36,800 nucleotides of DNA from Acidobacteriaceae bacterium. Lineage in GTDB: Bacteria > Acidobacteriota > Terriglobia > Terriglobales > Acidobacteriaceae. The DNA lies in assembly GCA_027452245.1 (NCBI GenBank), contig DAIDGW010000003.1, positions 1-36,800 on the forward strand. Direction: 5' to 3'. The number at the start of each line of letters is the position of its first letter. Within the stretch, counting starts at the first letter, position 1. The position numbers and the translations under genes were made by a program. Of this stretch, positions 17,979 through 33,521 are shown in pieces. The notes beneath the pieces were generated by a model. The model did not search any database. It was not told the origin of the DNA and saw nothing but the letters and a program-made list of their open reading frames with translations.

Positions 17979-20900
17979 TTACGTTTCTTGCCCGCGGCGG
18001 CGCGCTCTTGCTTCCAGCATTCCATGGAAGATCGCGAAGACGCTGGGTACAAAGAAGAGCGTCGCGATAGTAGCGAAGAGCAAGCCACCGATGACTGCTC
18101 TGCCCAGGGGAGCGTTTTGCTCACCGCCTTCGCCGAGGCCGAGAGCCATAGGCACCATGCCGATGATCATGGCGAGAGCGGTCATCAATACGGGGCGCAC
18201 ACGGGTATAGCCGGCAGCCACCGCGGCGCGAACGGCGGAGACGCCTTCATCCATCTGTTCGCGGGCGAAGCTGACCATCAGAATAGAATTGGCAGTCGCC
18301 ACGCCCATGCACATCACTGCACCGGTAAGCGAGGGGACACTCAAGGTCGTATGGGTCAGCAGCAGGAACCAGCAAATCCCAGCCAAGGCGCCGGGCAGAG
18401 CCGCAATGATGATAAATGGGTCGAGCCAGGACTGAAAGTTGATGACGATCAGCAGGTAGACCAGAACGATGGCGCCGATCAAGCCGAGGCCGAGTCCGAT
18501 GAAGGAAGAGCGCATGGTTGCGACCTGCCCCCGTACCACGAGGCGAGTGCCGCGCGGGAGATGCTCCTGGAACGTCTGCAAGACTTTGTTGGTAGCGGTC
18601 GCAACTGCGCCAAGATCGCGATCCTGGGTGCTGGCGTAGACGTCAATGACAGGCTGTACGTTGTAATGGTTGACGGTTGCAGGCCGAACTGTAGGACTTA
18701 GCTGTACGAGATTCCCCATGACCTGGGGGCCCTGCTGAGACATCATCGGGATGTTCATCAGGTCCTGAAGATTGGTCATGCGGTATTGGGGCGCCTGCAC
18801 AGCTATTTGATAGGTAACTTCGTTGTGAGGGTTCAACCAAAAATTGGGAGCCGTCTGAAAGCTTCCGCTCAAGGAAATAAGGGCATTTTGGGCGACCTGG
18901 CCGGCCGTGAGGCCGACCTGGGCGGCGCGGGTCCGCTGGATGTCCATGTAGAGCGTAGGCAGAGACATTAACTGTTGCACGTGCACGTCAGCCGTTCCCG
19001 GGATTTCCCGCATCTTGTTGGCGATCCGCTGGGCGATGTTGTAGTTGCTCTGCATGTCCATACCGACAACCTGAACGTCGATGGGCGCAGGCAGACCGAA
19101 ATTGAGGATCTGAGTGACGATATCAGCGGGCTGAAAGAAAAATTCCACTCCGGGGAAGTGCTGGGGCAGATATTCCCGCAGATGGCGCATAAGATCGGCG
19201 GTCGGGGGATGATGCTGGGGATCGAGCGCGATCAGGATCTCGGCATCGCTGGAACCGATGGTTCCATTGGAACTGTAGGACTGATTCAAACCGGAATTTG
19301 GGAGACCGATGTTATCCAATAAGGTTTGCAGTTGGCCGGGAGGGATCTGGGAGCGCAAAGCCCCTTCGATCTGATCGCAAAGACGGGCGGTCTCTTCGAC
19401 GCGGAGTCCGGGGCGGGCGCGGACATGCAGGCGCAGCAAGCCAGCGTCGACCTGGGGGAAGAAGTCCTGGCCGAGAAAGCTGTAAAGGCCGAGCGAGAGT
19501 ATGCAGAAGATGAGGAAGCCGATGATGAAGAGGCCCTTATGTTCGAGCGTAGTCTCCAGGAGGGCTTCATATCCGCGGCGGAAGTCTTCGAATCTGCGTT
19601 CAAAACCACGCTGGAAACGGCCAAGAAAAGATTTTGGCGCAGCGGCGCGATGCTCGTGACCACGCATGATGTACATCACGAGGGTCGGAATCAGAGTTCG
19701 CGAGAGCAGGTAACTGGCCAGCATGGCAAAGCTGACCGCTTCAGCGAGCGGCACGAAAAGAAACTTGGCGACACCGGTCAGAAAGAACATGGGCACGAAC
19801 ACAATGCAGATGCTGAGAGTGGAAACGAAGGCGGGGACGGCAATCTGCTGTGCGCCATCGAGAATGGCCTGCCGCATCTCCTTTCCCATGGCGAGATTGC
19901 GCTCGATGTTTTCGATTTCTACGGTGGCGTCGTCAACGAGAATGCCGACGGCCAGCGCCAATCCACCCAGGGTCATGATGTTGATCGTTTCTCCAATGGC
20001 GCCGAGCAGGATGATGGAGACGAAGATGGATAGCGGGATCGAGATGGAGATGACGATGGTGGGACGCCAATCGCCAAGAAAGATGAGGATCATCACGGCG
20101 GTGAGAGCGGCGGCGATCAGGGCTTCACGGATCACGCCTTGGATCGAGGCGCGCACGAAGAGGGATTGATCGAAGAGCGAAGTGATTTTGAGTTGCGGGG
20201 GCAGGGACTGGGCCGCCTGCTTGATGATTTCCTTGACGCCGGCAACGATCTGCAGGGTGGACGCTTTTCCGTTCTTGTAGATCGACATGAGGGCGCCGCG
20301 GTTACCGTCCTGGCGGACGATATTGGTTTGCGGCGCGAAGCCATCGCGGATGTGCGCTACGTCGCGCATATAGAGCGTGGCTCCGTTGACGGTTTTTACG
20401 GGGAGGTCATTCAACTCCGCGATGGTCTGGGGTGTTCCATTCATTTCCACGTCATATTCGAGCGAGCCCATTTTCATTGTGCCGGTGGGCAGAATGATGT
20501 TCTGGGCATTGACCGCGCCTACAACTTCGTTGGGGGAGAGCCCATACTGCTGCAGTTTGGGTATGTCGAGATCTACCTGGACCTGGCGAATCTTGCCGCC
20601 GTAGGGGTAAGGAGTGGCTGCGCCCTGGACAGTAGCGAGATAAGTCCGCAGAAAATTCTGGCCTAAGTCGAAGAGTTGCTGCTCGGGCAGCGTTTTGCTG
20701 CTAAGCCCGAGCTGGATGATGGGCGTAGTGGACGCGCTGTAAGAAATGACCAGTGGCGGCGTTGTTCCAGGGGGAAGGCCGCGCACCGTGGTCTGGCAGA
20801 TGGCGGTAATTTGCGAGATGGCGGTGGAGAGGTTCGTCCCAGGGCGGAAGAACACCTTGATAATTCCCAGCCCGTAGACGGATTGGGATTCCATATGCTC

Positions 20901-21134
20901 GATATTGTTGACGGTGGTGGTGATGCTGCGCTCGGAGTTGGCGACGATGCGGTCCGCCATATCCTGCGGCGACATGCCGGTGTAAAACCAGATGACGGAA
21001 ACGACGGGAATATCAATATCGGGGAAGATATCAACAGGGGTGCGTACGACTGTGACGCCGAACAAGATAATGATGACGAGCGCCATCACGACGAAGGTAT
21101 AGGGCCGTCTTAGAGCTAAGGCAACAATCCACAT
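17979..21134 (-). CDS. RND efflux permease (AcrB/HAE-like)
   Basis: A 1051 aa inner-membrane proton/drug antiporter with twelve predicted helices in two repeats and two large periplasmic loops. The fourth helix carries the paired acidic residues D401-D402 (GILVDDATVEIENIER), as in AcrB-type pumps rather than metal pumps. In the tenth helix the position of AcrB Lys940 reads Ala (GVATANSILMV), so the proton relay differs from the textbook one; the later TRVRPVLMT stretch is kept. It is the first gene of the permease-adaptor-channel operon and divergent from a TetR-family gene. Substrate unknown. Confidence 0.92.
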   Translation of the reverse strand: MWIVALALRRPYTFVVMALVIIILFGVTVVRTPVDIFPDIDIPVVSVIWFYTGMSPQDMADRIVANSERSITTTVNNIEHMESQSVYGLGIIKVFFRPGTNLSTAISQITAICQTTVRGLPPGTTPPLVISYSASTTPIIQLGLSSKTLPEQQLFDLGQNFLRTYLATVQGAATPYPYGGKIRQVQVDLDIPKLQQYGLSPNEVVGAVNAQNIILPTGTMKMGSLEYDVEMNGTPQTIAELNDLPVKTVNGATLYMRDVAHIRDGFAPQTNIVRQDGNRGALMSIYKNGKASTLQIVAGVKEIIKQAAQSLPPQLKITSLFDQSLFVRASIQGVIREALIAAALTAVMILIFLGDWRPTIVISISIPLSIFVSIILLGAIGETINIMTLGGLALAVGILVDDATVEIENIERNLAMGKEMRQAILDGAQQIAVPAFVSTLSICIVFVPMFFLTGVAKFLFVPLAEAVSFAMLASYLLSRTLIPTLVMYIMRGHEHRAAAPKSFLGRFQRGFERRFEDFRRGYEALLETTLEHKGLFIIGFLIFCILSLGLYSFLGQDFFPQVDAGLLRLHVRARPGLRVEETARLCDQIEGALRSQIPPGQLQTLLDNIGLPNSGLNQSYSSNGTIGSSDAEILIALDPQHHPPTADLMRHLREYLPQHFPGVEFFFQPADIVTQILNFGLPAPIDVQVVGMDMQSNYNIAQRIANKMREIPGTADVHVQQLMSLPTLYMDIQRTRAAQVGLTAGQVAQNALISLSGSFQTAPNFWLNPHNEVTYQIAVQAPQYRMTNLQDLMNIPMMSQQGPQVMGNLVQLSPTVRPATVNHYNVQPVIDVYASTQDRDLGAVATATNKVLQTFQEHLPRGTRLVVRGQVATMRSSFIGLGLGLIGAIVLVYLLIVINFQSWLDPFIIIAALPGALAGICWFLLLTHTTLSVPSLTGAVMCMGVATANSILMVSFAREQMDEGVSAVRAAVAAGYTRVRPVLMTALAMIIGMVPMALGLGEGGEQNAPLGRAVIGGLLFATIATLFFVPSVFAIFHGMLEARARRRGQET

Positions 21135-21265: not shown

Positions 21266-21922
21266 ATGCGGCAAAGACCTTCGGTCACCGGGCATGCGGC
21301 GAACGGCAATAGCAAACGGCCCCCCGGGCGCCCGCGCAGTGAGCATGCGCGCGTGGCGATTCTGCGGAGCACGCTCAAGATGCTTTCGGAAAATGGCTTC
21401 TCCGACCTGACGATTGAAGGCGTAGCCGACCAGGCGGCCGTGGGCAAGGCAACAGTGTATCGATGGTGGCCGAACAAGGGAGCGCTGATTGCAGATGCTT
21501 TTGCAAGCAGTACAGTGATGAAACTGCGGTTTCCTAACACAGGTTCGGTAGTTCGCGACATCAGCCAGCAAATGCGCCAACTGGTGAAGGTGCTGGGCAG
21601 TCCGCAGGGACGGATCGTGTCGGCAATTCTCGCCGCCGGGCAGAGCGATGAGGATTCCATTGTGGCGTTTCGAGAACGTTTCCTGAAACCACGGCGCCAG
21701 GAAGCCTACGTTACTTTGCGGCGAGGAGTTCGGCGGGGAGAATTGCGGAAAGATATAGATTCGGACCTGCTTCTGGATTCGCTGTATGGTCCGATTTATA
21801 TGCGTTTTTTAATCCGGCATGATCGGCTCACGCCGGAGTTCGTCGATAGCCTTTGTGCACTTGTGTTGCGAGGAGCTCGTTGCCGCCGCAAAGTTCGCCC
21901 CAGCGGTGGGTCTGCGAACTGA
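21266..21922 (+). CDS. TetR-family transcriptional regulator
   Basis: A 218 aa regulator. After a basic leader containing PPGRPRSEHAR comes a classical TetR helix-turn-helix: ILRSTLKMLSENGFSDLTI then VADQAAVGKATVYRWWPNKG, with the conserved Tyr-Arg-x-x-x-x-Lys end. The C-terminal ligand domain (PRRQEAYVTLRRGVRRGEL) resembles the TetR_C group often found next to RND pumps. The gene is divergent from the efflux operon and the shared spacer holds an inverted repeat, so it is very probably the local efflux repressor. The ATG has AAGG upstream. Confidence 0.9.
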   Translation: MRQRPSVTGHAANGNSKRPPGRPRSEHARVAILRSTLKMLSENGFSDLTIEGVADQAAVGKATVYRWWPNKGALIADAFASSTVMKLRFPNTGSVVRDISQQMRQLVKVLGSPQGRIVSAILAAGQSDEDSIVAFRERFLKPRRQEAYVTLRRGVRRGELRKDIDSDLLLDSLYGPIYMRFLIRHDRLTPEFVDSLCALVLRGARCRRKVRPSGGSAN

Positions 21923-24708: not shown

Positions 24709-25212
24709 TCATCGTTTCAGCCGCTCGTCGATATTTCGGGCCAGAGACATGAGCGCCGGTGGAACTTCGGCAGACTGCTGGAAGGCGACAAGGCGCACGA
24801 GGTAAGGTCCTCGACGGAAAACCACACTTTGCGAATACTGCCTGGCCTCATCTCCCAGTTGGACCGGCTTGGCACCGCTCATGGGCTCTGATGCGAGGAG
24901 CTTGGTTGCTCCTTCTGAATCTGGCATGGCGTACACGTCAGCGGCTGCTTCCACTGCATTCTGGAACTTGTAGTCGGCGGTCTGCACCCTCTGCACGCCA
25001 AGCTTCAAGTAACGTTCCGCATCGCCATCGATGTATTTCCACAGATCTGCCGCCTCAAAGGTGCGCACCTCGCTGACCCGTGCCCAACCTGCAACCTCGT
25101 TGGAGGGTAGAAGTGCCTGGCCATTCGCGCGGGTTTCGCGGTTGCAAGCGGGAACGACTGCTGTGAGTAATGAGACAGTCACAAGGACGGGCAGAACCAG
25201 GCTTTTCCTCAC
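24709..25212 (-). CDS. DUF6599-like lipoprotein
   Basis: A 167 aa exported protein with a hydrophobic signal segment and lipobox-like VVPAC (Cys23). The mature part contains LLPSNEVAGWARVSEVRTF and LWKYIDGDAERYLKLGV, which resemble the DUF6599 family of uncharacterised exported proteins. The GTG at 25212 has AGGAG shortly upstream and starts at the signal peptide; an in-frame upstream start at 25275 would place 21 extra residues before it. It is divergent from the metabolic operon. Biochemical function unknown. Confidence 0.7.
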   Translation of the reverse strand: MRKSLVLPVLVTVSLLTAVVPACNRETRANGQALLPSNEVAGWARVSEVRTFEAADLWKYIDGDAERYLKLGVQRVQTADYKFQNAVEAAADVYAMPDSEGATKLLASEPMSGAKPVQLGDEARQYSQSVVFRRGPYLVRLVAFQQSAEVPPALMSLARNIDERLKR

Positions 25213-25396
25213 GTTCTCTCCTGGGCGACAAGTCAATGAGAAGAAAGGTGCTTGTGGCCGCTTTTCGAGCAACAAGGAATTCTGATCGGTTTCGCCCTTG
25301 ACCGGGAAACCTTCGAATCACAGACCCGTGTGATCCTAATCGCAGTTTGCCCACGCACCGCGCAGCTAGCCTAAAACGTTCGTCGGTGGAGCCCGC

Positions 25397-25957
25397 ATGC
25401 GTGATGCCGTCGCTCGGCTGTGGCCGGAAATCGAGTGGATTCAGAACCTTGACTTGCGGGAGAGAGTCACACAGACCTGGATCAAGGCGCTGGAGCGCAG
25501 TCCGCTGACGGCGGATGACCTCAACAGTATCCCATTCACATTGCTAGTTCCGAATTGCCCTATCACCTTCATGGAACACAAGCGATGCGTGGTGCACATC
25601 GCCCGTGAAAGCGCGCTGGCGATGCAGAGTTTCATGGGACGCGCGCTGCCCGTCGACGTTGATACAGTGATCGCCGGGGCGATTCTTGCCGATGTGGGCA
25701 AGCTTCTGGAGTACGAACTCGGCCCCGACGGGAAGAGCCGGCAGAGCGAGCGCGGAGAGGCGCTGCGGCATCCTTTTACGGGAGTTGCGCTAGCCCTCGA
25801 ATGCGGAGTTCCCGACACCGTGTGTCACATCATCGCGGCCCACGCCGCGGAGGGCGATCTGGTCAAACGAACGACCGAAGCATTCATTGTGCACCACGCT
25901 GATTTCATGGCGTTCCTGCCGTTCAAGAATCCGAAAAATATCAAACTCAAATCTTAA
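25397..25957 (+). CDS. HD-domain-like protein with degenerate metal site
   Basis: A 186 aa protein that follows the HD phosphohydrolase layout: EHKRCVVHIAR (H61/H67), then AILADVGK (97-102), RHPFTG (H125), IIAAH (H149) and VHHAD (H166, H167, D169). The His of the defining His-Asp pair is Ala98 here, with Asp99 kept, so metal binding and hydrolase activity may be altered. It is the first gene of a six-gene operon; the next start is 11 bases after its stop. Proposed roles are regulation or thioester/phosphate hydrolysis linked to the tricarboxylate enzymes downstream. This is inference, as no published function is recognised. Confidence 0.68.
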   Translation: MRDAVARLWPEIEWIQNLDLRERVTQTWIKALERSPLTADDLNSIPFTLLVPNCPITFMEHKRCVVHIARESALAMQSFMGRALPVDVDTVIAGAILADVGKLLEYELGPDGKSRQSERGEALRHPFTGVALALECGVPDTVCHIIAAHAAEGDLVKRTTEAFIVHHADFMAFLPFKNPKNIKLKS

Positions 25958-25968
25958 GGAGCTCCAAC

Positions 25969-27441
25969 TTGCCGGCCACAAATCCCATTGCTTCCGCCAA
26001 ACTGACCGTGAGCGCGACGATGTCTCGCTGGGCGGCGAGCCTGCAATACCAGGACATCTCTGAAGAAGCGGTCTATCAGGCCAAACGGTTTCTGCTTGAT
26101 TCTCTCGGTTGTGCGCTGGGGGGATTTCAGCAGCACGATGTAAGCATTGCCCTCGAAGTCCTGGACGAAGTTGCCGGCCCGGGACGCGCCACGGTAATTG
26201 GGACGGGCAAGCGCATGGACCCAGTGTCAGCGGCATTGGCTAACGCGCTCATGATCCGCTGCATGGATTACAACGACATCTACTGGAAACAGGACCCGTC
26301 GCATCCTTCCGACATTTTCCCCGCGGCGATCGCCTGCTGCGAACGTAGTGAGAGCGATGGCAAGGAGTTGATTGTCGGGCTGGTGCTGGGCCACGAATTC
26401 GAGATGCGCTTGTGTGAAGCGGCGTTTCCCGGAATCCGCGAGCGCGGCTGGCATCATGCGACCCTGACGGCTTTTGTCTCGCCGATTGTTGCCGGCCGGG
26501 CGCTGCGTTTGCCGTGGGAGCAGATTCAGCATGCCATTGGCATCTCCGCGAGCCGCCATTGCACGTTGGGTGCAGTGACAGCCGGCAAGTTGACGATGAT
26601 GAAGAACACCGTCGATCCCCTGGCGACGCAGAGCGGAGTGCTGGCGGCATTGCTGGCACAAAAAGGCTACACGGGACCGGAACATGTGATCGACGGAAAA
26701 GAGGGGCTGACGCACGTGTTCGGCCCGGACTGGAAGCTTGGTTTGCTGACCGAAGGTCTGGGCTCTTCGTGGCGCATTACCCAGTGCGGCATGAAAGCGT
26801 TTCCGACCGAGGCGTTGACGCACACGCCGATTTCCGCGGTTCTCGACCTGGTGAAAGAGAATGATCTTCATCCCGAGCAGGTGCAGAAAATTCAGATTCG
26901 CTCGCTGGCGCGGGCTGCCGACATCCTGTCGGATCCCAGCAAATACGATCCTCACACCAAAGAGACTGCGGACCATTCGCTTCCGTATGTGATTGCCGCG
27001 GCGTTGGTGGACCGGCAGGTGACTCCAGTGCAGTTCACGATGGAGAAGATTCGAGATCCGCAGATTCGTGCGCAGCTTAAAAAAGTGGAAGTAGTGGCTG
27101 ATCCAGAGATCGAAAAGGTATTTCCGGCATTACAGAGGGTAATCGTGCATATCGATACTACGGATGGACGTTCCTTCAACAAACAACTGGATTTCCCGAA
27201 AGGCGATCCGCGTAATCCCTTAACCGATCAGGAACTGCAAGAGAAATTTGCGGCGTTGGCGGACGGTGTTCTTTCCAAGCCGGCGCAGCAGCGGGTGAAG
27301 GATGCAGTCTGGAAATTGGAGCGTGTCGGCTCGGTGACGGAACTGATGGTGTTGATGGAGTCCGATCTCCGCCATGCGGCTACGAGAAAAAGGAACGCGG
27401 AGTTGTCCAAGCCAAAGCGCCGGAAAACAGCGCGCGCCTGA
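25969..27441 (+). CDS. MmgE/PrpD-family dehydratase
   Basis: A 490 aa member of the MmgE/PrpD superfamily, which includes 2-methylcitrate dehydratase and cis-aconitate decarboxylase. Residues expected at the active site are present: D100/D103 (CMDYNDIYW), H112 (HPSD), H162 (GWHH), K212 (MMKNTVDP) and K276 with T284-H285 (CGMKAFPTEALTH). The start is TTG with an excellent AAGGAG seven bases upstream; the next in-frame ATG is at 26020. Next to the homoaconitase-like gene it probably dehydrates a citrate-type acid to the unsaturated intermediate, as PrpD does in the methylcitrate cycle. Decarboxylase activity is an alternative. Confidence 0.87.
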   Translation: MPATNPIASAKLTVSATMSRWAASLQYQDISEEAVYQAKRFLLDSLGCALGGFQQHDVSIALEVLDEVAGPGRATVIGTGKRMDPVSAALANALMIRCMDYNDIYWKQDPSHPSDIFPAAIACCERSESDGKELIVGLVLGHEFEMRLCEAAFPGIRERGWHHATLTAFVSPIVAGRALRLPWEQIQHAIGISASRHCTLGAVTAGKLTMMKNTVDPLATQSGVLAALLAQKGYTGPEHVIDGKEGLTHVFGPDWKLGLLTEGLGSSWRITQCGMKAFPTEALTHTPISAVLDLVKENDLHPEQVQKIQIRSLARAADILSDPSKYDPHTKETADHSLPYVIAAALVDRQVTPVQFTMEKIRDPQIRAQLKKVEVVADPEIEKVFPALQRVIVHIDTTDGRSFNKQLDFPKGDPRNPLTDQELQEKFAALADGVLSKPAQQRVKDAVWKLERVGSVTELMVLMESDLRHAATRKRNAELSKPKRRKTARA

Positions 27442-27488
27442 GCGGTGTGCGCCGGGGCCAAAAGCGTAAGTCAGATTTGGAGTTTTAT

Positions 27489-29465
27489 ATGGCACAAACG
27501 ATCGTCGAAAAGATTGCGCAGGCTCATATAGCGGCAGGCCCGCATCGCCCTTTGCGCGCCGGGGACTTTGTTTCCATTCGTCCGCTTCACGCTATGACCC
27601 ACGACAATACGTCGGCGGTCATGAGCAAGTTCAAGGGGATCGGAGCAACCCGGATTCAAGATCCCCGACAACTGGTTTTTGCGCTCGATCACGACATTCA
27701 GAATCAGGATGAAGTGAATCTGAAGAAATACCGCGCCATTGAAGCATTCGCGCGGCAGCATGGGGTTGATTTCCATCCCGCCGGTTCGGGCATCGGGCAT
27801 CAGATCATGATCGAGCGGGGCTATGTTCTGCCGGGATCGTTCGTAGTCGCATCCGACTCGCACTCCAATATGTATGGTGCGCTGGGAGCGACCGGGACGC
27901 CGATCGTACGCACCGATGCCGCCGCGGTTTGGGCCACCGGAGAATTCTGGTGGCAGGTGCCGCGCACGATCCAGGTCGTACTCGAAGGCCGGCTCCCGGA
28001 TGGAGTGAGCGGCAAAGACGTCATCATCACACTTTGTGGGCTGTACAACCACGACGAGGCGCTCAATGCGGCCATCGAGTTTTCCGGTCCCGGAGTGGAG
28101 AGCCTGTCCATGGACGACCGCTTCTCGATTGCCAACATGAGCACGGAGTGGGGACCGATCGCCGCCTGGTTTCCGGTGGATGACGTCACGATCGGCTACC
28201 TGCGGGCCGTTTACAAGAGGCTGAAGGAACAAGGAATCCAGCGCTTTACGGAAAATGATCTTCACCTCTGGAGGAGCTATCCGCTTCTTCCTGATCGCGA
28301 CGCAACCTACGCGGCGCGGATAACGCTGGATCTGAGTCATGTCGTTCCGCATGTGTCGGGACCGGATACCGTGCAGACGATGCAGTCTCTAGCTGAAATG
28401 GAACACAAGAGAATCCGAATTCAGAAGGCGTATCTGGTCTCGTGCGTCAACTCACGATTGTCAGATTTGCAGGCGGCAGCATCGGTGCTGCGCGGGAACA
28501 TGGTTGCACCTGGAGTGAAATTCTATATCGGAGCAGCGAGCGCCTGGGTGCAGAAACAGGCAGAGGAGAAGGGCATCTGGGCAGTTCTGCTGGAAGCGGG
28601 AGCGATTCCTCTTCCGCCCAGCTGTGGCCCGTGCATCGGCCTTGGCACCGGGCTGCTGGAAAAGGGAGAGGTCGGCATTTCAGCCACCAACCGCAATTTC
28701 AAAGGGCGTATGGGCTCGCGGGAGGCGCAATGCTATCTAGCCAGCCCGGAGGTGGTCGCGGCCTCAGCGGTGGCCGGGTATATCACAGGGCGGCGAATTT
28801 TTGATGCGCGTCTACTGGAGCGGAACTACGAGGTGTACCCGATTCAATCCCAGACCAGCGAACGGGTGGACATCCTTCCCGGTTTTCCCGGAAAAATCGC
28901 GGGCCGACTGGTCTTCCTCCCGCCGGACAACATCAACACCGATGCGATTTATGGCAAGGACTACACCTATCGCGATGATATGACGCCGGAGATGATGGCG
29001 CGCGTGATCATGCAGAACTACGATCCGCAGTTCGCGAGCCGCACGCAAGCCGGAGATGTGGTCGTCGCCGGCTTCAATTTCGGAACGGGGTCGAGCCGCG
29101 AACAAGCGGTCACCTGTTTGAAGGCGAAGGGCATACCCCTGATTGTTGCCGGCAGCTTTTCGCAGACCTATCTCCGGAATGCGTACAACAACGGATTTCT
29201 CTGCATTGAAGTGCCGGAATTGCTGCCGCGGCTGCGGGACGAGTTTGCCGGGGCCATCGCGTCCCCGGAAAAGACCATCATCTCGGAGGATAAGGTTGCG
29301 ATTGATTTCACTTCCGGGACACTCACCTGGCGGGAAGAGAAATTCTCATTTCCGCCGCTGGGCAACGTGCCGCAATCACTGGTAGTTGCCGGAGGAGTGG
29401 AGAACGTAATCGCAAAGAAACTCGGGCTCGGCCAGAAGGAATCGGCTCTGGTTTCAGGAGACTAG
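27489..29465 (+). CDS. Fused homoaconitase-like hydro-lyase (fungal Lys4 type)
   Basis: A 658 aa aconitase-superfamily protein with the large (LeuC-like) and small swivelling (LeuD-like) domains in one chain. Cluster ligands are C319 (VSCVNSR), C379 and C382 (SCGPCIG). Other conserved elements are DSHSNMYGALG (123-133), RTDAAAVWATG (141-151), SNRNFKGRMGS-like (400-410) and GSSREQA (534-540). The stretches around RTDAAAVWATG, IANMSTEWG and GKDYTYRDDM match, from memory, fungal homoaconitase Lys4 better than bacterial aconitase or isopropylmalate isomerase. The ATG has GGAG eight bases upstream. It should hydrate the PrpD product to an isocitrate-type acid; the true substrate is unknown. Confidence 0.85.
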   Translation: MAQTIVEKIAQAHIAAGPHRPLRAGDFVSIRPLHAMTHDNTSAVMSKFKGIGATRIQDPRQLVFALDHDIQNQDEVNLKKYRAIEAFARQHGVDFHPAGSGIGHQIMIERGYVLPGSFVVASDSHSNMYGALGATGTPIVRTDAAAVWATGEFWWQVPRTIQVVLEGRLPDGVSGKDVIITLCGLYNHDEALNAAIEFSGPGVESLSMDDRFSIANMSTEWGPIAAWFPVDDVTIGYLRAVYKRLKEQGIQRFTENDLHLWRSYPLLPDRDATYAARITLDLSHVVPHVSGPDTVQTMQSLAEMEHKRIRIQKAYLVSCVNSRLSDLQAAASVLRGNMVAPGVKFYIGAASAWVQKQAEEKGIWAVLLEAGAIPLPPSCGPCIGLGTGLLEKGEVGISATNRNFKGRMGSREAQCYLASPEVVAASAVAGYITGRRIFDARLLERNYEVYPIQSQTSERVDILPGFPGKIAGRLVFLPPDNINTDAIYGKDYTYRDDMTPEMMARVIMQNYDPQFASRTQAGDVVVAGFNFGTGSSREQAVTCLKAKGIPLIVAGSFSQTYLRNAYNNGFLCIEVPELLPRLRDEFAGAIASPEKTIISEDKVAIDFTSGTLTWREEKFSFPPLGNVPQSLVVAGGVENVIAKKLGLGQKESALVSGD

Positions 29466-29472
29466 TCAATTT

Positions 29473-30723
29473 ATGGCGAAACATACTGTAGTCACTATGC
29501 CGGGAGACGGAATCGGCAATCAGGTTTTACCAGAGGCTATCCGTCTGCTGAAGGCAGTTCAATTCGATGCGGAGTACATCCACGCCGATATTGGCTGGGA
29601 TTGCTGGTGCCGCGAAGGCAACGCGCTGCCGGACCGCACGGTGGAACTGCTGGCCAAGCACAAGCTGGGGTTGTTTGGAGCCATCACGTCAAAGCCGAAG
29701 AAACAAGCCGATGCCGAACTGCGGCCGGAACTCAGAGGCAAGGGATACTCCTACTTCAGCCCAATCGTGACCATGCGGCAGCGGTTCCATCTGGATACGT
29801 GTATTCGCCCATGTATCTCGTTTCCCGGGAATCCGCTGAATTTCATCCGCAAGAAACCCGACGGAGGTTTCGAAGAGCCGCTGGTAAACGTGGTTGTCTT
29901 CCGGCAAAACACCGAAGGACTGTATGCCGGGGTGGAGTGGACAAACCCGCCGGAGCTGGTGCGTGCCGCCCTCGCAACGCACTCGAAGTTCAAGCCGTTC
30001 GCCGGTATTGCGGGGCCGGACCTCGCGATCTCTGTCCGTATCATCACACGCAATGCGGCGCGCAAGATCTGCCGCGGAGCATTCGAGTGGGCCAAGAAGT
30101 ACGGCTACAAGTCAGTGACCATCTGCGAGAAGCCGAATGTGCTTCGCGAAACGTCAGGAATGATGGAGGAAGAAGCGAAGAATGTTGCCCGCGAATTCCC
30201 GGGCATCGCGTTATGGTCGACGAACATCGATGCGCAGACCATGTGGCTGACAAAGAATCCGGAAGAGTACGGCGTGGTTGTTGCGTCCAACCTCTTCGGA
30301 GACGTTATTTCCGACGCTTTCGCGGGCCTGGTCGGTGGGCTGGGATTCGCCGCTTCCGGCAATATCGGAGATGAAGTTGCAGTCTTCGAGCCGACGCATG
30401 GATCCGCGCCCAAGTACGCGGAACTTGATCCTCCCATAGTGAATCCGATCGCGATGTTTCTTTCGGCAGTGATGATGCTGGAGCATGTGGGCGAGATCGA
30501 GAAGGCCGGCCGCATACGCCAGGCCATTTCTGCTGTTGTTAAGCAGGGGACAGTAAGGACGTATGACATGATGCGCCTTCCCGGCGGCCCGAAAGCGATT
30601 GCGCAGGGAGCCGCGAGCACCGTCCAGATGACGGACGCTGTGATCGCGGAGTTCGAGCGGCAAGCCGGTTCGCATGGGTTGGATCGGGAGCTGGTGGCGG
30701 CTGGCAATTCCAGGCAACGGTGA
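29473..30723 (+). CDS. Isocitrate/isopropylmalate dehydrogenase-family enzyme
   Basis: A 416 aa beta-decarboxylating dehydrogenase. It starts with MPGDGIGNQV and contains NTEGLYAGVEW, EKPNVLRETSG, NLFGDVISDAFAGLVGG and EPTHGSAPKYA. The Lys-Tyr after GSAP matches the NADP-selecting pair of Escherichia coli Icd rather than Asp-Ile of NAD enzymes. The substrate-binding helix reads FSPIVTMRQRF, differing from both the LeuB and Icd motifs, so the acid's side chain is probably not that of isocitrate or isopropylmalate. It would convert the hydrated product of the Lys4-like enzyme to a 2-oxoacid plus CO2. The start lies eight bases after the previous stop. Confidence 0.87.
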   Translation: MAKHTVVTMPGDGIGNQVLPEAIRLLKAVQFDAEYIHADIGWDCWCREGNALPDRTVELLAKHKLGLFGAITSKPKKQADAELRPELRGKGYSYFSPIVTMRQRFHLDTCIRPCISFPGNPLNFIRKKPDGGFEEPLVNVVVFRQNTEGLYAGVEWTNPPELVRAALATHSKFKPFAGIAGPDLAISVRIITRNAARKICRGAFEWAKKYGYKSVTICEKPNVLRETSGMMEEEAKNVAREFPGIALWSTNIDAQTMWLTKNPEEYGVVVASNLFGDVISDAFAGLVGGLGFAASGNIGDEVAVFEPTHGSAPKYAELDPPIVNPIAMFLSAVMMLEHVGEIEKAGRIRQAISAVVKQGTVRTYDMMRLPGGPKAIAQGAASTVQMTDAVIAEFERQAGSHGLDRELVAAGNSRQR

Positions 30724-30728
30724 CGACC

Positions 30729-31934
30729 ATGAGTGTGGCGACGACACTTCAGGCGGGAGAAGCGGGACATTGCGGAGCCGATATCCGTTCCGATCTGCAG
30801 GTACGAATTGAGGTTCGCGATGGCGGAGGGCTGAGGATTGAACTCGAATCGCGGGTTGGCAGTTTCTACGGGGATTCGATCCGGAGGCAAGCGGAGGAAG
30901 TTCTCGAAGCACTCGGGGTTCGCCATGCCCTGGTTGAGATTCGGGACGAAGGCGCCCTGCCGTATGTGATTGCTGCGCGTATCGAAGCGGCGGCGCGGCG
31001 CGCGGGACGAGGCATGGGAACAAGAGTGCTCCCCGACCGGATTGCGCTTCCGGAGCCGTCGGGGCGGGACCGTCTGCGGCGTTCGCGCTTGTACCTGCCG
31101 GGGAGCGAGCCTAAGTACATGATCAACGCGGCGCTGCACGGCCCCGATGCGATCATTCTCGATCTTGAGGACTCGGTTCATCCCAGAGAAAAAGATGCTG
31201 CGCGCTTGCTGGTTCGGAACGCCTTGCGGGCGGTCGATTTTCTATCGTGCGAGCGGATGGTGCGCATCAACCAGCTTCCTCTTGGCCTGGAAGATCTCAG
31301 CGAGATCGTGCCTGAATATCCGGACCTGATTCTTATTCCCAAGGTCGAGAGTGCGGCTCAGGTCGTTGAAGTCAGCCAGCACGTGGAAAAGATTAAAGCC
31401 GATTACGGCATCACGCGTCCGGTCTGGCTCATGCCGATCCTGGAATCTGCCGTGGGGATTGAGAACGCCTTCGCGATCGCAAAGGCCAGCGAGCAGATCG
31501 TTGCCTTGACGATTGGCCTGGAAGACTACACCGCGGACCTGGGCGTACCGAAAACTTCCACGGGAGCCGAGACGCTTTACGCGCGGCAACACCTGGTCAA
31601 TGCGGCGCGCGCTGCCGGGTTGCAGGCGATCGACTCTGTATTCGGCGATGTCGGCGACATGCAAGGATTGCACGCCTGGGCACTCAACTCCCGCGCGCTT
31701 GGCTTCGAAGGCATGGGCTGCGTTCATCCCTCGCAGATCCCGATTCTTCACGAGGCATTCGCTCCCACTAAAGCCGAAATGGACAAAGCAAGAAAGATTG
31801 TTGCGGCGTTTAAAGAAGCACAGGATCAAGGGCTCGGAGTTGTGAGCCTGGGTTCCAAAATGATCGATCCTCCTGTTGTGCAACGAGCGCTCAAGTTAAT
31901 GGCGCGGGCGGAAGCGATGGGGTTAACGCAGTGA
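30729..31934 (+). CDS. CitD-CitE fusion: acyl-carrier domain plus lyase beta subunit
   Basis: A 401 aa fusion. Residues 1-95 resemble the citrate lyase acyl-carrier subunit (SDLQVRIE...ELESRV...FGDSIRRQ-like...DEGALPYVIAARIEAA). Residues from about 110 onward form a CitE/HpcH TIM-barrel lyase (RSRLYLPGSEPKYM, IILDLEDSV, GLEDYTADLG, GCVHPSQI). CitE cleaves or forms citryl-type thioesters. In Klebsiella CitD the prosthetic group sits on Ser14 (ESSD); here the aligned residues are R20-S21-D22, so Ser is shifted by one. No citC, citG or citX gene lies in the window. An alternative GTG start at 30720 overlaps the previous stop. citF follows. Confidence 0.85.
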   Translation: MSVATTLQAGEAGHCGADIRSDLQVRIEVRDGGGLRIELESRVGSFYGDSIRRQAEEVLEALGVRHALVEIRDEGALPYVIAARIEAAARRAGRGMGTRVLPDRIALPEPSGRDRLRRSRLYLPGSEPKYMINAALHGPDAIILDLEDSVHPREKDAARLLVRNALRAVDFLSCERMVRINQLPLGLEDLSEIVPEYPDLILIPKVESAAQVVEVSQHVEKIKADYGITRPVWLMPILESAVGIENAFAIAKASEQIVALTIGLEDYTADLGVPKTSTGAETLYARQHLVNAARAAGLQAIDSVFGDVGDMQGLHAWALNSRALGFEGMGCVHPSQIPILHEAFAPTKAEMDKARKIVAAFKEAQDQGLGVVSLGSKMIDPPVVQRALKLMARAEAMGLTQ

Positions 31935-31952
31935 GGGTAACAGGGAGAGTTC

Positions 31953-33521
31953 ATGCCCACCGTTGAAAAAACCGGATTGGCGGCAAACGCCGCAGGCCGC
32001 ATGGTTCCTGAATCAGTGAACGGGCGCCGGCAGGTGCCTTACCTCGGCGCGGGGAAATACTGGCCGGCTGGGCTCAAGGCTTCGGCGCCAATTCGCACGG
32101 CTGCTAATTATCCCGCCAACGGCGATAAACGCGTGTCCGACCTGGAGACTGCCTTGCGGAAATGCGGACTTCGCGACGGCATGGTGATTTCGTCTCATCA
32201 TCATCTGCGGGATGGCGACCGCGTTGCGCTCATGGCGCTGAAAGCTGCGGCCAGACTCGGTGTCAAGGACCTCATGTGGTTTCCCAGCGCTTCATTTCCT
32301 TCGCAGAAAGATGCGATCGAGCTTATGGAAGCTGGAGTGATCGATCACATTGAGGGCAGCATGAACGGTCCTCTGGGAGATTACTGCACGCAGGGGAAGA
32401 TGCGCGGCATGGGAGTGCTGCGCTCGCACGGAGGCCGCTGGCAAGCGATACAGGATGGTGAAGTGCATATCGACGTGGCAATCATCGCCGCTCCCGCCGC
32501 CGACGCTTTCGGCAACTGCGACGGATCGCACGGCAAGTCGGCGTGTGGTTCCCTCGGTTTTGCTCTGGCCGATTCGATTTACGCCGATTACGTCATCGTT
32601 GTTACCGATAACCTGGTGCCGTTTCCCTGTGTGCCGTGGCAGATACAGGGCAACAACGTGGATTTCGTGGTGGAAGTGGATTCGATCGGCGACCCCGCGA
32701 AAATCGTTTCGGGTACAACCCAGATCACGCGATCTCCAGACCGGTTGCGGATCGCCGAGTTCGTCGCGCGTTTTCTTCAGGATGCCGGAATTATGCGCAA
32801 TGGCTTCTCGTTTCAGGCCGGTTCGGGAGGAATCTCCCTGGCATTCGTCAGCTACCTCAAGGAGATGATGAAGCAAGCGGGAGTGAAGGCGAGGTTTGTG
32901 CGTGGAGGCTCAACGAAATACCTCGTCGAACTGCTCGAAGAGGGGCTGACCGATTACATTCTCGATGGGCAGACGTTCGATCTCGACGGTGTGCGCTCGC
33001 TGGCGAATAATTCCCGGCACCTGGCCACATCTCCGTTCACTTCCTATAACTACCACGGCAAAGGAAGCTTCGCGTCGATGGTGGATGCGGTTGTGCTGGG
33101 CGCCACCGAGGTCGATACAGACTTCAACGCCAACGTCGTCACCCATTCCGACGGCAGGCTTTTACACGGAATTGGGGGCTGGCAAAACTGTCTGGCAGCG
33201 GGATGCACGATCCTGGCGCTGCCGTCGTTTCGCGACCGCATTCCTGTCATCGTTGACGATGTAACCACGCTGTGCGGCCCGGGAGAACTGATCGACGTTG
33301 TCGTCACCGAGCGCGGTATTGCCATCAATCCGTTACGGCAAGATCTCATTGACGCCGTAAAAGGTTCAAAATTGCCGATTCGACCTCTAGAGGACATTAA
33401 GAACGAAGTGCAGCGAATCTGTGGAGGAAAGCCCCAGCCACGGAAACACAGCGACCGGGCGGTGGCCATTGTGAAATGGGTAGACGGAACGGTTCTCGAC
33501 ACGGTCTGGCAAACCGCATGA
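31953..33521 (+). CDS. Citrate lyase alpha-subunit (CitF)-like transferase
   Basis: A 522 aa CoA-transferase-superfamily protein, similar from end to end to the citrate lyase alpha subunit. Matching stretches include GLRDGMVISSHHHLRDGD, SHGGRWQAIQDGE, CGSLGFALADSIYADYVI, VSGTTQI, GSGGISLAFVSYLKE, TDFNANVVTHSDG and GIAINPLRQDLIDAVK. CitF exchanges acetyl for the tricarboxylate on the carrier thioester. It follows citDE by 18 bases with a GGGAGAG ribosome binding site and ends the operon. The acid bound may be citrate or a homologue such as homocitrate. Normal operons also carry citC, citX and citG, which are not here. Confidence 0.87.
   Translation: MPTVEKTGLAANAAGRMVPESVNGRRQVPYLGAGKYWPAGLKASAPIRTAANYPANGDKRVSDLETALRKCGLRDGMVISSHHHLRDGDRVALMALKAAARLGVKDLMWFPSASFPSQKDAIELMEAGVIDHIEGSMNGPLGDYCTQGKMRGMGVLRSHGGRWQAIQDGEVHIDVAIIAAPAADAFGNCDGSHGKSACGSLGFALADSIYADYVIVVTDNLVPFPCVPWQIQGNNVDFVVEVDSIGDPAKIVSGTTQITRSPDRLRIAEFVARFLQDAGIMRNGFSFQAGSGGISLAFVSYLKEMMKQAGVKARFVRGGSTKYLVELLEEGLTDYILDGQTFDLDGVRSLANNSRHLATSPFTSYNYHGKGSFASMVDAVVLGATEVDTDFNANVVTHSDGRLLHGIGGWQNCLAAGCTILALPSFRDRIPVIVDDVTTLCGPGELIDVVVTERGIAINPLRQDLIDAVKGSKLPIRPLEDIKNEVQRICGGKPQPRKHSDRAVAIVKWVDGTVLDTVWQTA

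Follow-up and report, generated by a model that had tools for sequence, protein, structure and literature searches.

The subject of this analysis is a six-gene operon in a 36,800-nt stretch of DNA (here called the window) from an Acidobacteriaceae bacterium (assembly GCA_027452245.1, contig DAIDGW010000003.1, positions 1 to 36,800). The operon appears, with somewhat better than even probability, to encode a chain-shortening module for a C6 2-oxoacid, with the overall reaction 2-oxoadipate + CO2 + NAD(P)H -> 2-oxoglutarate + acetate. The wider proposal is a reversed alpha-aminoadipate (AAA) pathway by which members of several bacterial phyla would degrade lysine; CO2 would be fixed onto 2-oxoadipate, and homocitrate would be split by a descendant of citrate lyase that has lost its protein-bound cofactor and acts on free CoA esters. 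It is put at just short of an even chance. Searches of the open-access literature turned up no account of this operon, no homocitrate lyase and no lysine catabolism passing through homocitrate.

The six open reading frames (ORFs) are all on the + strand between 25397 and 33521 and are separated by 11, 5, 7, -4 and 18 bp, which bore out the tightly packed six-gene arrangement of the original prediction, made from the sequence alone (Table 1). Pfam and NCBIfam models assigned them to the HDIG, MmgE/PrpD, fused aconitase and Iso_dh families, a fusion of a CitD-like acyl carrier protein (ACP) domain with CitE (CitDE), and CitF. In the proposed route, the isocitrate dehydrogenase (IDH)-family enzyme would carboxylate 2-oxoadipate reductively to homoisocitrate, the Lys4-type homoaconitase would, judging from its family, dehydrate this to homoaconitate, and the PrpD-family enzyme, or a second aconitase-family enzyme elsewhere, would hydrate homoaconitate to homocitrate. 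CitF would then transfer CoA, in its free form, from acetyl-CoA onto homocitrate, and CitE would cleave homocitryl-CoA to acetyl-CoA and 2-oxoglutarate, while the HD protein would be a conserved accessory of the module. In some relatives the module would supply the lower steps of lysine degradation in one operon with lysine-ketoglutarate reductase (LKR), saccharopine dehydrogenase (SDH) and aminoadipate-semialdehyde dehydrogenase (AASADH), and the reversed pathway would give back the 2-oxoglutarate that serves as amino acceptor. It had been proposed that the operon interconverts an oxoacid plus an acetyl group with the next longer 2-oxoacid plus CO2 by way of PrpD/homoaconitase, IDH-type and citrate-lyase-type enzymes; the families and their linkage fit this scheme, but the lyase departs from ordinary citrate lyase. 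The suggestion that this lyase replaces homocitrate or isopropylmalate synthase in elongation was not supported.

CitDE was searched for in 247 genomes of the window's phylum, including the host assembly (G000; 6.2 Mb in 274 contigs, 97.6% complete). A match was found in 75 of them, and 31 contained close relatives of the fused type (E < 1e-70), as far as the contigs allow and counting one genome (G091) split over two contigs. The few named close relatives were Candidatus Sulfotelmatobacter and other Acidobacteriota, and two genomes (G193 and G097) encoded canonical citrate lyases with a separate CitD. GTDB contigs were scanned with an alignment of ten CitDE proteins, and the best 80 of at least 507 stretches encoding a relative were taken. 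These were mostly metagenome-assembled genomes (MAGs) from Bacteroidota, Ignavibacteria, Cloacimonadota, Planctomycetota and Chloroflexi, with further titles from Gemmatimonadota, WOR-3, Marinimicrobia, Krumholzibacteriota and others. Together with the window and 29 acidobacterial loci (31 fetched minus the two canonical ones), this gave 110 loci, one contig being present twice (L047 = L151), in which genes were counted at 44% identity or more to queries from the window or L053. CitF was found in 100 of the 110 loci, IDH in 43 and HD in 41, and at least one further part of the module stood beside CitDE-CitF in 59. The full set was present in 22 loci, 15 of the window's PrpD type (window included) and seven of a second type described below, and it spanned at most about 21 kb per locus (8 kb in the window). 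Chance clustering of the six genes was ruled out by this conservation across phyla.

The evidence that carries the lysine connection came from the genes beside the module. In the locus titled Carboxylicivirga (L155/L204) and in one from Bacteroidales (L146/L203), nine genes formed a run on one strand in the order CitDE-CitF-IDH-HD-vAcn-HacAB-AASADH-LKR-SDH, where vAcn is a LeuCD-type fused aconitase and HacAB a second enzyme of the aconitase family; intergenic distances in L204 were -8 to 147 bp. The AASADH of L155 scored 801 bits on the L-piperidine-6-carboxylate dehydrogenase model (cut-off 730), and the copy in L203 was 71% identical to it. The LKR of the two Bacteroidota loci was about 32% identical to that of L112, which aligned along its entire length with mitochondrial alpha-aminoadipic semialdehyde synthase (8e8u; 260 bits), and their SDH was 36-37% identical to that of L141, which had both saccharopine dehydrogenase domains (PF16653 and PF03435). 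Among the Cloacimonadota, LKR lay directly before CitDE-CitF-IDH-HD-vAcn-HacAB in L112, and the order was SDH-LKR-CitDE-CitF in L108 and L141. AASADH was convergent to CitF in L123, and LysA (374 bits, cut-off 298) was encoded just upstream of CitDE in L146. The window's IDH, HD, CitDE and CitF were 51-65% identical to those of the lysine operons, the IDH being 59-64% identical to its counterparts in L204 and L203.

With genomes of 3-4 Mb, a gene present once per genome would be expected in 0.3-0.4 of the 80 GTDB loci (1.25 Mb). LKR was found in five (Poisson P 2e-5 to 7e-5), three from Cloacimonadota and two from Bacteroidota, and AASADH in three (P 0.004 to 0.009), kinship being ignored in both figures. 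Within the Acidobacteriota, G185 and G161 have LKR downstream of CitF, at distances of about 7 kb and about 17 kb, respectively. Six of the eleven PrpD-type acidobacterial genomes, from families f5 and f65 (G231, G046, G239, G082, G161 and G185), contained both LKR and AASADH above cut-off, the LKR of G082 being a fragment at a contig end; the other five had neither. The incorporation of the module into lysine-degradation operons of some relatives favours the shortening direction, and the lysine-gene neighbours together with the Lys4-type homoaconitase favour homocitrate and 2-oxoadipate as the likely side-chain series. Other candidates for lysine enzymes were rejected. An aldehyde dehydrogenase (ALDH) and an aminotransferase on contig C10 of G000 had been considered as AASADH and aminoadipate aminotransferase, but the ALDH scored best on ketoglutarate-semialdehyde dehydrogenase, and for the ALDHs encoded close to CitDE in L126 and L142 the identity was only 25-26%, the L142 protein fitting the methylmalonate-semialdehyde dehydrogenase model.

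The window's homoaconitase, with aconitase and aconitase_C domains, scored 743 bits on TIGR00139, well above the cut-off of 529.9, so that its description as a Lys4-like fused homoaconitase held. Its Fe-S residues Cys333, Cys393 and Cys396 and the GSSREQA motif were invariant in all 20 aligned rows. The preceding gene product contained the N- and C-terminal MmgE/PrpD domains (245 and 162 bits); its assignment as a PrpD-family dehydratase was right as to family, but it is not a PrpD equivalog, all three cut-offs being missed by far (101.7 vs 950, 93.6 vs 575 and 68.7 vs 458), and its nearest solved relatives were IDS-epimerase and IRG1. PrpD was found in 24 of the 110 loci and the Lys4-type homoaconitase in 22, with both in 21; vAcn was found in 16 and the HacAB-type enzyme in 19, with both in 15. 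The two pairs were never mixed. The vAcn and HacA/HacB proteins of L053, L045 and L057 matched LeuC/HacA and LeuD/HacB subfamily models, several below cut-off. That an aconitase-family protein takes the place of PrpD in other lineages argues that PrpD acts here as a hydro-lyase, and not as a decarboxylase or epimerase. According to Fazius et al. 2012 (PMC3556520), homoaconitases catalyse only the interconversion of homoaconitate with homoisocitrate, and in fungi it is aconitases that carry out the homocitrate step. Since fungi on that account likewise need two enzymes, the two-enzyme isomerisation in the module supports a homocitrate route.

The lyase has citrate-lyase ancestry and has lost the prosthetic-group site of the canonical enzyme. 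The fusion consists of an ACP domain (MdcD/CitD, residues 17-95) and an HpcH_HpaI domain (CitE, residues 121-337). The CitE domain scored 182 bits on PF03328, and CitF scored 441 bits on PF04223. Thus both catalytic subunits of citrate lyase were recognized at the Pfam level, and both NCBIfam equivalogs were missed, CitE with 277 against a cut-off of 443.4 (TIGR01588) and CitF narrowly, with 492.6 against 501.45 (TIGR01584). The position of the prosthetic-group serine of CitD, Ser14 in Klebsiella, is Arg23 in the window's protein, two residues before a conserved Asp. All 27 fused proteins of the first set have Arg there, as do 96 of the 101 distinct CitDE proteins of the larger set, in which the others have K, K, S, H and N and the following residue is Ser in 97, Ala in three and Asn in one. 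The canonical citrate-lyase controls L061 and L062 retained SSD at this site. SSD was also kept in the CitDE of a Desulfuromusa MAG (L139, 848-2005), which may be a holo-type fusion.

The maturation genes CitX and CitG were each absent from all 30 fused-type acidobacterial genomes (G091 left out) and were found in both canonical genomes of the same phylum. No full-length match to CitC, the acetate ligase, was found in the 30 genomes. Partial matches to the CitC model (20-25.6 bits, from model position 9 to 70-107 of 182) occurred in eight of them, compared with 212-217 bits over positions 2-182 in the canonical genomes, and are read as other nucleotidyltransferases. Six of the 30, including G000 (25.6 bits), exceeded Pfam's low cut-off of 20.9 bits, which counts against the proposed reading. 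Isolated citrate-lyase subunits are able to use CoA esters. Because the prosthetic serine is lost, CitX and CitG are absent and there is no full-length CitC, CitDE-CitF likely acts on free CoA esters, with CitF as CoA-transferase and CitE as CoA-ester lyase. The CitD-CitE fusion and CitF were correctly named as families in the original prediction, but an enzyme without the prosthetic-group site, CitX and CitG is not a normal citrate lyase.

Several observations weigh against the proposed pathway. In 51 of the 110 loci, many of them short contigs, CitDE was found with or without CitF only, and HD, IDH and the hydro-lyases were missing. Of the 45 loci in which CitDE is flanked by 8 kb or more on each side, 20 held CitDE-CitF alone, other regions of those genomes not having been searched. 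Whether the genes stay together in relatives thus received a divided answer, with 59 linked loci and 22 full sets on one side and these 20 well-flanked loci on the other. Well-flanked examples of CitDE-CitF alone were L097, L103, L111, L127 and L156. Ten neighbours around the CitDE-CitF-only loci L054-L056 and L058, plus one each at L054 and L060, showed no tie to the pathway. LKR and AASADH above cut-off were both lacking in the PrpD-type genomes G000, G121, G073, G092 and G069, in all six vAcn-type acidobacterial genomes (G032, G002, G058, G045, G070 and G081), and in all four CitDE genomes of the window's family, which include G000. G000 had no LKR, its best match to the AASADH model reached 389 bits (cut-off 730) and fits a ketoglutarate-semialdehyde-type ALDH better, and no source of 2-oxoadipate was found in it, SDH and other routes not having been searched. 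Across the Acidobacteriota, LKR was found in 10 of the 31 CitDE genomes and in 37 of the 216 others, a weak enrichment (one-sided Fisher 0.044, uncorrected for kinship), and AASADH above cut-off was hardly enriched (11 of 31 and 61 of 216). LKR was present in 33 of the 50 genomes examined from the 80 GTDB loci. It was also present in 214 of 295 Bacteroidia, including all four that contained CitDE, and is so common there that its co-occurrence is uninformative. Reductive carboxylation is moreover energetically unfavourable except at high CO2 and NAD(P)H. The loci with CitDE-CitF alone, and the lack of lysine genes in the vAcn-type acidobacterial genomes, slightly lowered confidence in the proposed pathway and in the wider proposal and slightly raised it in each of the three rival explanations.

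The IDH-family enzyme (246 bits on PF00180) bears on both this pathway and an analogous one. Its nearest solved relatives were NAD-IDH and homoisocitrate dehydrogenases, at almost equal closeness, and the homoisocitrate dehydrogenase equivalog was not reached, none of the 16 listed models being matched above cut-off (best AksF2_Meth, 268.7 vs 540). Sequence alone therefore leaves its substrate unfixed, which also weighs against the 2-oxoadipate assignment. Two tandem IDH copies were seen in one Bacteroidales module (L106, 9877-10740 and 10908-12104; ORFs of 287 and 398 aa). The near-equality would also fit a module working one carbon shorter, from 2-oxoglutarate + CO2 through isocitrate, aconitate and citrate to oxaloacetate + acetate, as an ATP-free reductive tricarboxylic acid (TCA) branch or a citrate-utilisation operon. 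The citrate-lyase ancestry of CitDE-CitF and the lack of a visible 2-oxoadipate source in the window's genome point the same way. This explanation is nevertheless unlikely: the Lys4 homoaconitase score on TIGR00139 is far above cut-off, and lysine genes lie within the module's operon in relatives. A dedicated two-enzyme isomerase for citrate would also be odd in G000, where contigs C220 and C17 each carry an aconitase-type gene and C108 a LeuC/LeuD-like pair, as named by match and length. Separate host aconitases had been suggested as a check, and with these genes elsewhere the operon homoaconitase is probably not the housekeeping enzyme of G000.

A more general explanation, with cleavage of some other tricarboxylate (2-methylcitrate, for example, or a longer alkyl- or homologous citrate) and the lysine-linked loci as a special case, is improbable. 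It would agree with the PrpD family name, with the frequent occurrence of CitDE-CitF alone, and with a methylmalonyl-CoA-decarboxylase-like gene set upstream of CitDE in seven Bacteroidota loci (L101, L104, L114, L115, L121, L132 and L133). In L114, the sole one annotated, this set comprised an MmdA-like carboxyltransferase (778 bits, below the cut-off of 998.8), a sodium-pump decarboxylase beta subunit (470 bits, above cut-off) and a glyoxalase-fold protein read as a putative methylmalonyl-CoA epimerase. These genes fit equally well the conversion of 2-oxoglutarate through succinyl-CoA to propionyl-CoA, which suggests a propionate-forming continuation of the shortening pathway. By its model scores PrpD is not a true 2-methylcitrate dehydratase, and the 51-65% identity of four module proteins between the window and the lysine operons argues against different substrates.

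Operation in the biosynthetic direction, in which CitDEF would stand in for homocitrate synthase and join an oxoacid to acetyl-CoA, giving homocitrate or a different 2-alkylmalate for lysine or a longer 2-oxoacid, is quite improbable. Every step is formally reversible, and DapB was not detected in 21 of the 30 acidobacterial CitDE genomes, where a biosynthetic role would be possible; this again counts against the degradative reading. The window's genome, on the other hand, contains DapB (DapB_C, 114 bits) and its best LysX score is at most 35.5 bits against a cut-off of 275.6, which disfavours a role in lysine biosynthesis there. DapB was present and LysX above cut-off absent in G000, G275, G272, G290, G293 and G296, so that lysine synthesis in these six genomes probably does not depend on the module. 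LysX above cut-off was found in only two of 40 genomes, G002 and G032, and G002 has its own homocitrate-synthase-like gene in the LysX cluster (best model homocitrate synthase, 310 bits, below the cut-off of 414). An AASADH of the aldehyde dehydrogenase family in the relatives' operon favours oxidation, judging from the family, and a CoA-transfer lyase has no hydrolysis step to pull synthesis. The G002 cluster (L200, contig C56) encodes a LysW-like small protein (by reading), LysX, and ArgC/LysY-like, LysJ/ArgD-like and homocitrate-synthase-like proteins, and its predicted gene content is that of lysine (or arginine) synthesis of the AAA-LysW type, alongside the module. Classical citrate fermentation is disfavoured by the lost prosthetic site and the missing CitX and CitG, and a true methylcitrate cycle by the PrpD model scores.

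The module resembles parts of four known systems. With alpha-aminoadipate lysine biosynthesis (fungal LYS4/LYS12/LYS9/LYS1; Thermus AAA-LysW) it shares the Lys4-model homoaconitase, an IDH-family enzyme, the two-enzyme isomerisation and, in L203/L204, the saccharopine enzymes. It differs in having a citrate-lyase-type enzyme instead of homocitrate synthase, an ALDH-family semialdehyde dehydrogenase in relatives, a direction that would be reversed, and a host genome with DapB and no LysX above cut-off. CitF, the homology of CitE, the CitD-like domain and the predicted acyl exchange and cleavage recall citrate or citramalate lyase (CitDEF), whereas the fusion of CitD to CitE, the replacement of the prosthetic Ser by Arg, and the lack of CitG, CitX and a full-length CitC match set it apart. 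The upper steps of saccharopine lysine degradation (LKR/SDH, AASADH) are encoded beside the module in some relatives. The lower part of that pathway consists of 2-oxoadipate dehydrogenase and then glutaryl-CoA dehydrogenase, whereas the module would carboxylate 2-oxoadipate and end in cleavage to 2-oxoglutarate and acetate, with no decarboxylation to glutaryl-CoA. The methylcitrate cycle pairs PrpD with AcnB or AcnD, and the pairing of a PrpD-family with an aconitase-family enzyme is similar, but this PrpD falls below the equivalog cut-offs, its partner fits a homoaconitase and not the AcnB/AcnD model, and the six genes include neither PrpB nor PrpC.

Should the proposal prove true, lysine carbon could be broken down without passing through glutaryl-CoA and without the electron acceptor that this intermediate demands. 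2-Oxoglutarate would be regenerated and acetate formed, an arrangement that would suit Bacteroidota and Cloacimonadota living by fermentation or syntrophy. Functions could then also be assigned to large families whose members are at present called citrate lyase, homoaconitase or PrpD, and it would become clear how a citrate lyase manages without its prosthetic group. The genus Carboxylicivirga, to which L204 is titled, has cultured members.

Table 1. Genes of the operon and its upstream neighbours in the window, with predicted roles
Feature	Position	Strand	Models and remarks
HD-domain protein, 186 aa	25397..25957	+	TIGR00277 HDIG match; HD-motif His = Ala (LADVGK)
MmgE/PrpD-family enzyme	25969..27441	+	PF03972+PF19305; putative homoaconitate <-> homocitrate hydro-lyase
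Fused Lys4-type homoaconitase	27447..29465	+	TIGR00139; putative homoisocitrate <-> homoaconitate step
IDH/IPMDH-family dehydrogenase	29473..30723	+	PF00180; putative reductive carboxylation of 2-oxoadipate
CitD-like/CitE fusion	30720..31934	+	PF06857+PF03328; putative CoA-ester lyase (homocitryl-CoA -> acetyl-CoA + 2-oxoglutarate)
CitF-like alpha subunit	31953..33521	+	PF04223; putative acetyl-CoA:homocitrate CoA-transferase
DUF6599 protein	24709..25275	-	adjoins operon upstream, divergent
RND-type efflux transporter	17979..21134	-	upstream of operon; from reading of ORFs only
TetR-like regulator	21266..21922	+	upstream of operon, divergent from RND-type transporter; from reading of ORFs only

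The first gene of the operon encodes a protein that scored 32.8 bits on the HDIG model (cut-off 27.6). It had been described as a degenerate HD protein, which is right for the window's clade: in an alignment of 37 relatives and the window, the window's protein lacked the intact H...HD...D motif. The motif was intact in a sister clade (L045, L046, L048, L052, L053, L083 and L088), and in the other aligned proteins its His was replaced by A, I or C. The accessory protein may thus have changed its role or its metal between the clades. One 285-aa relative of the HD protein (P0130) carried a match to the PrpD N-terminal domain and is apparently a fusion.

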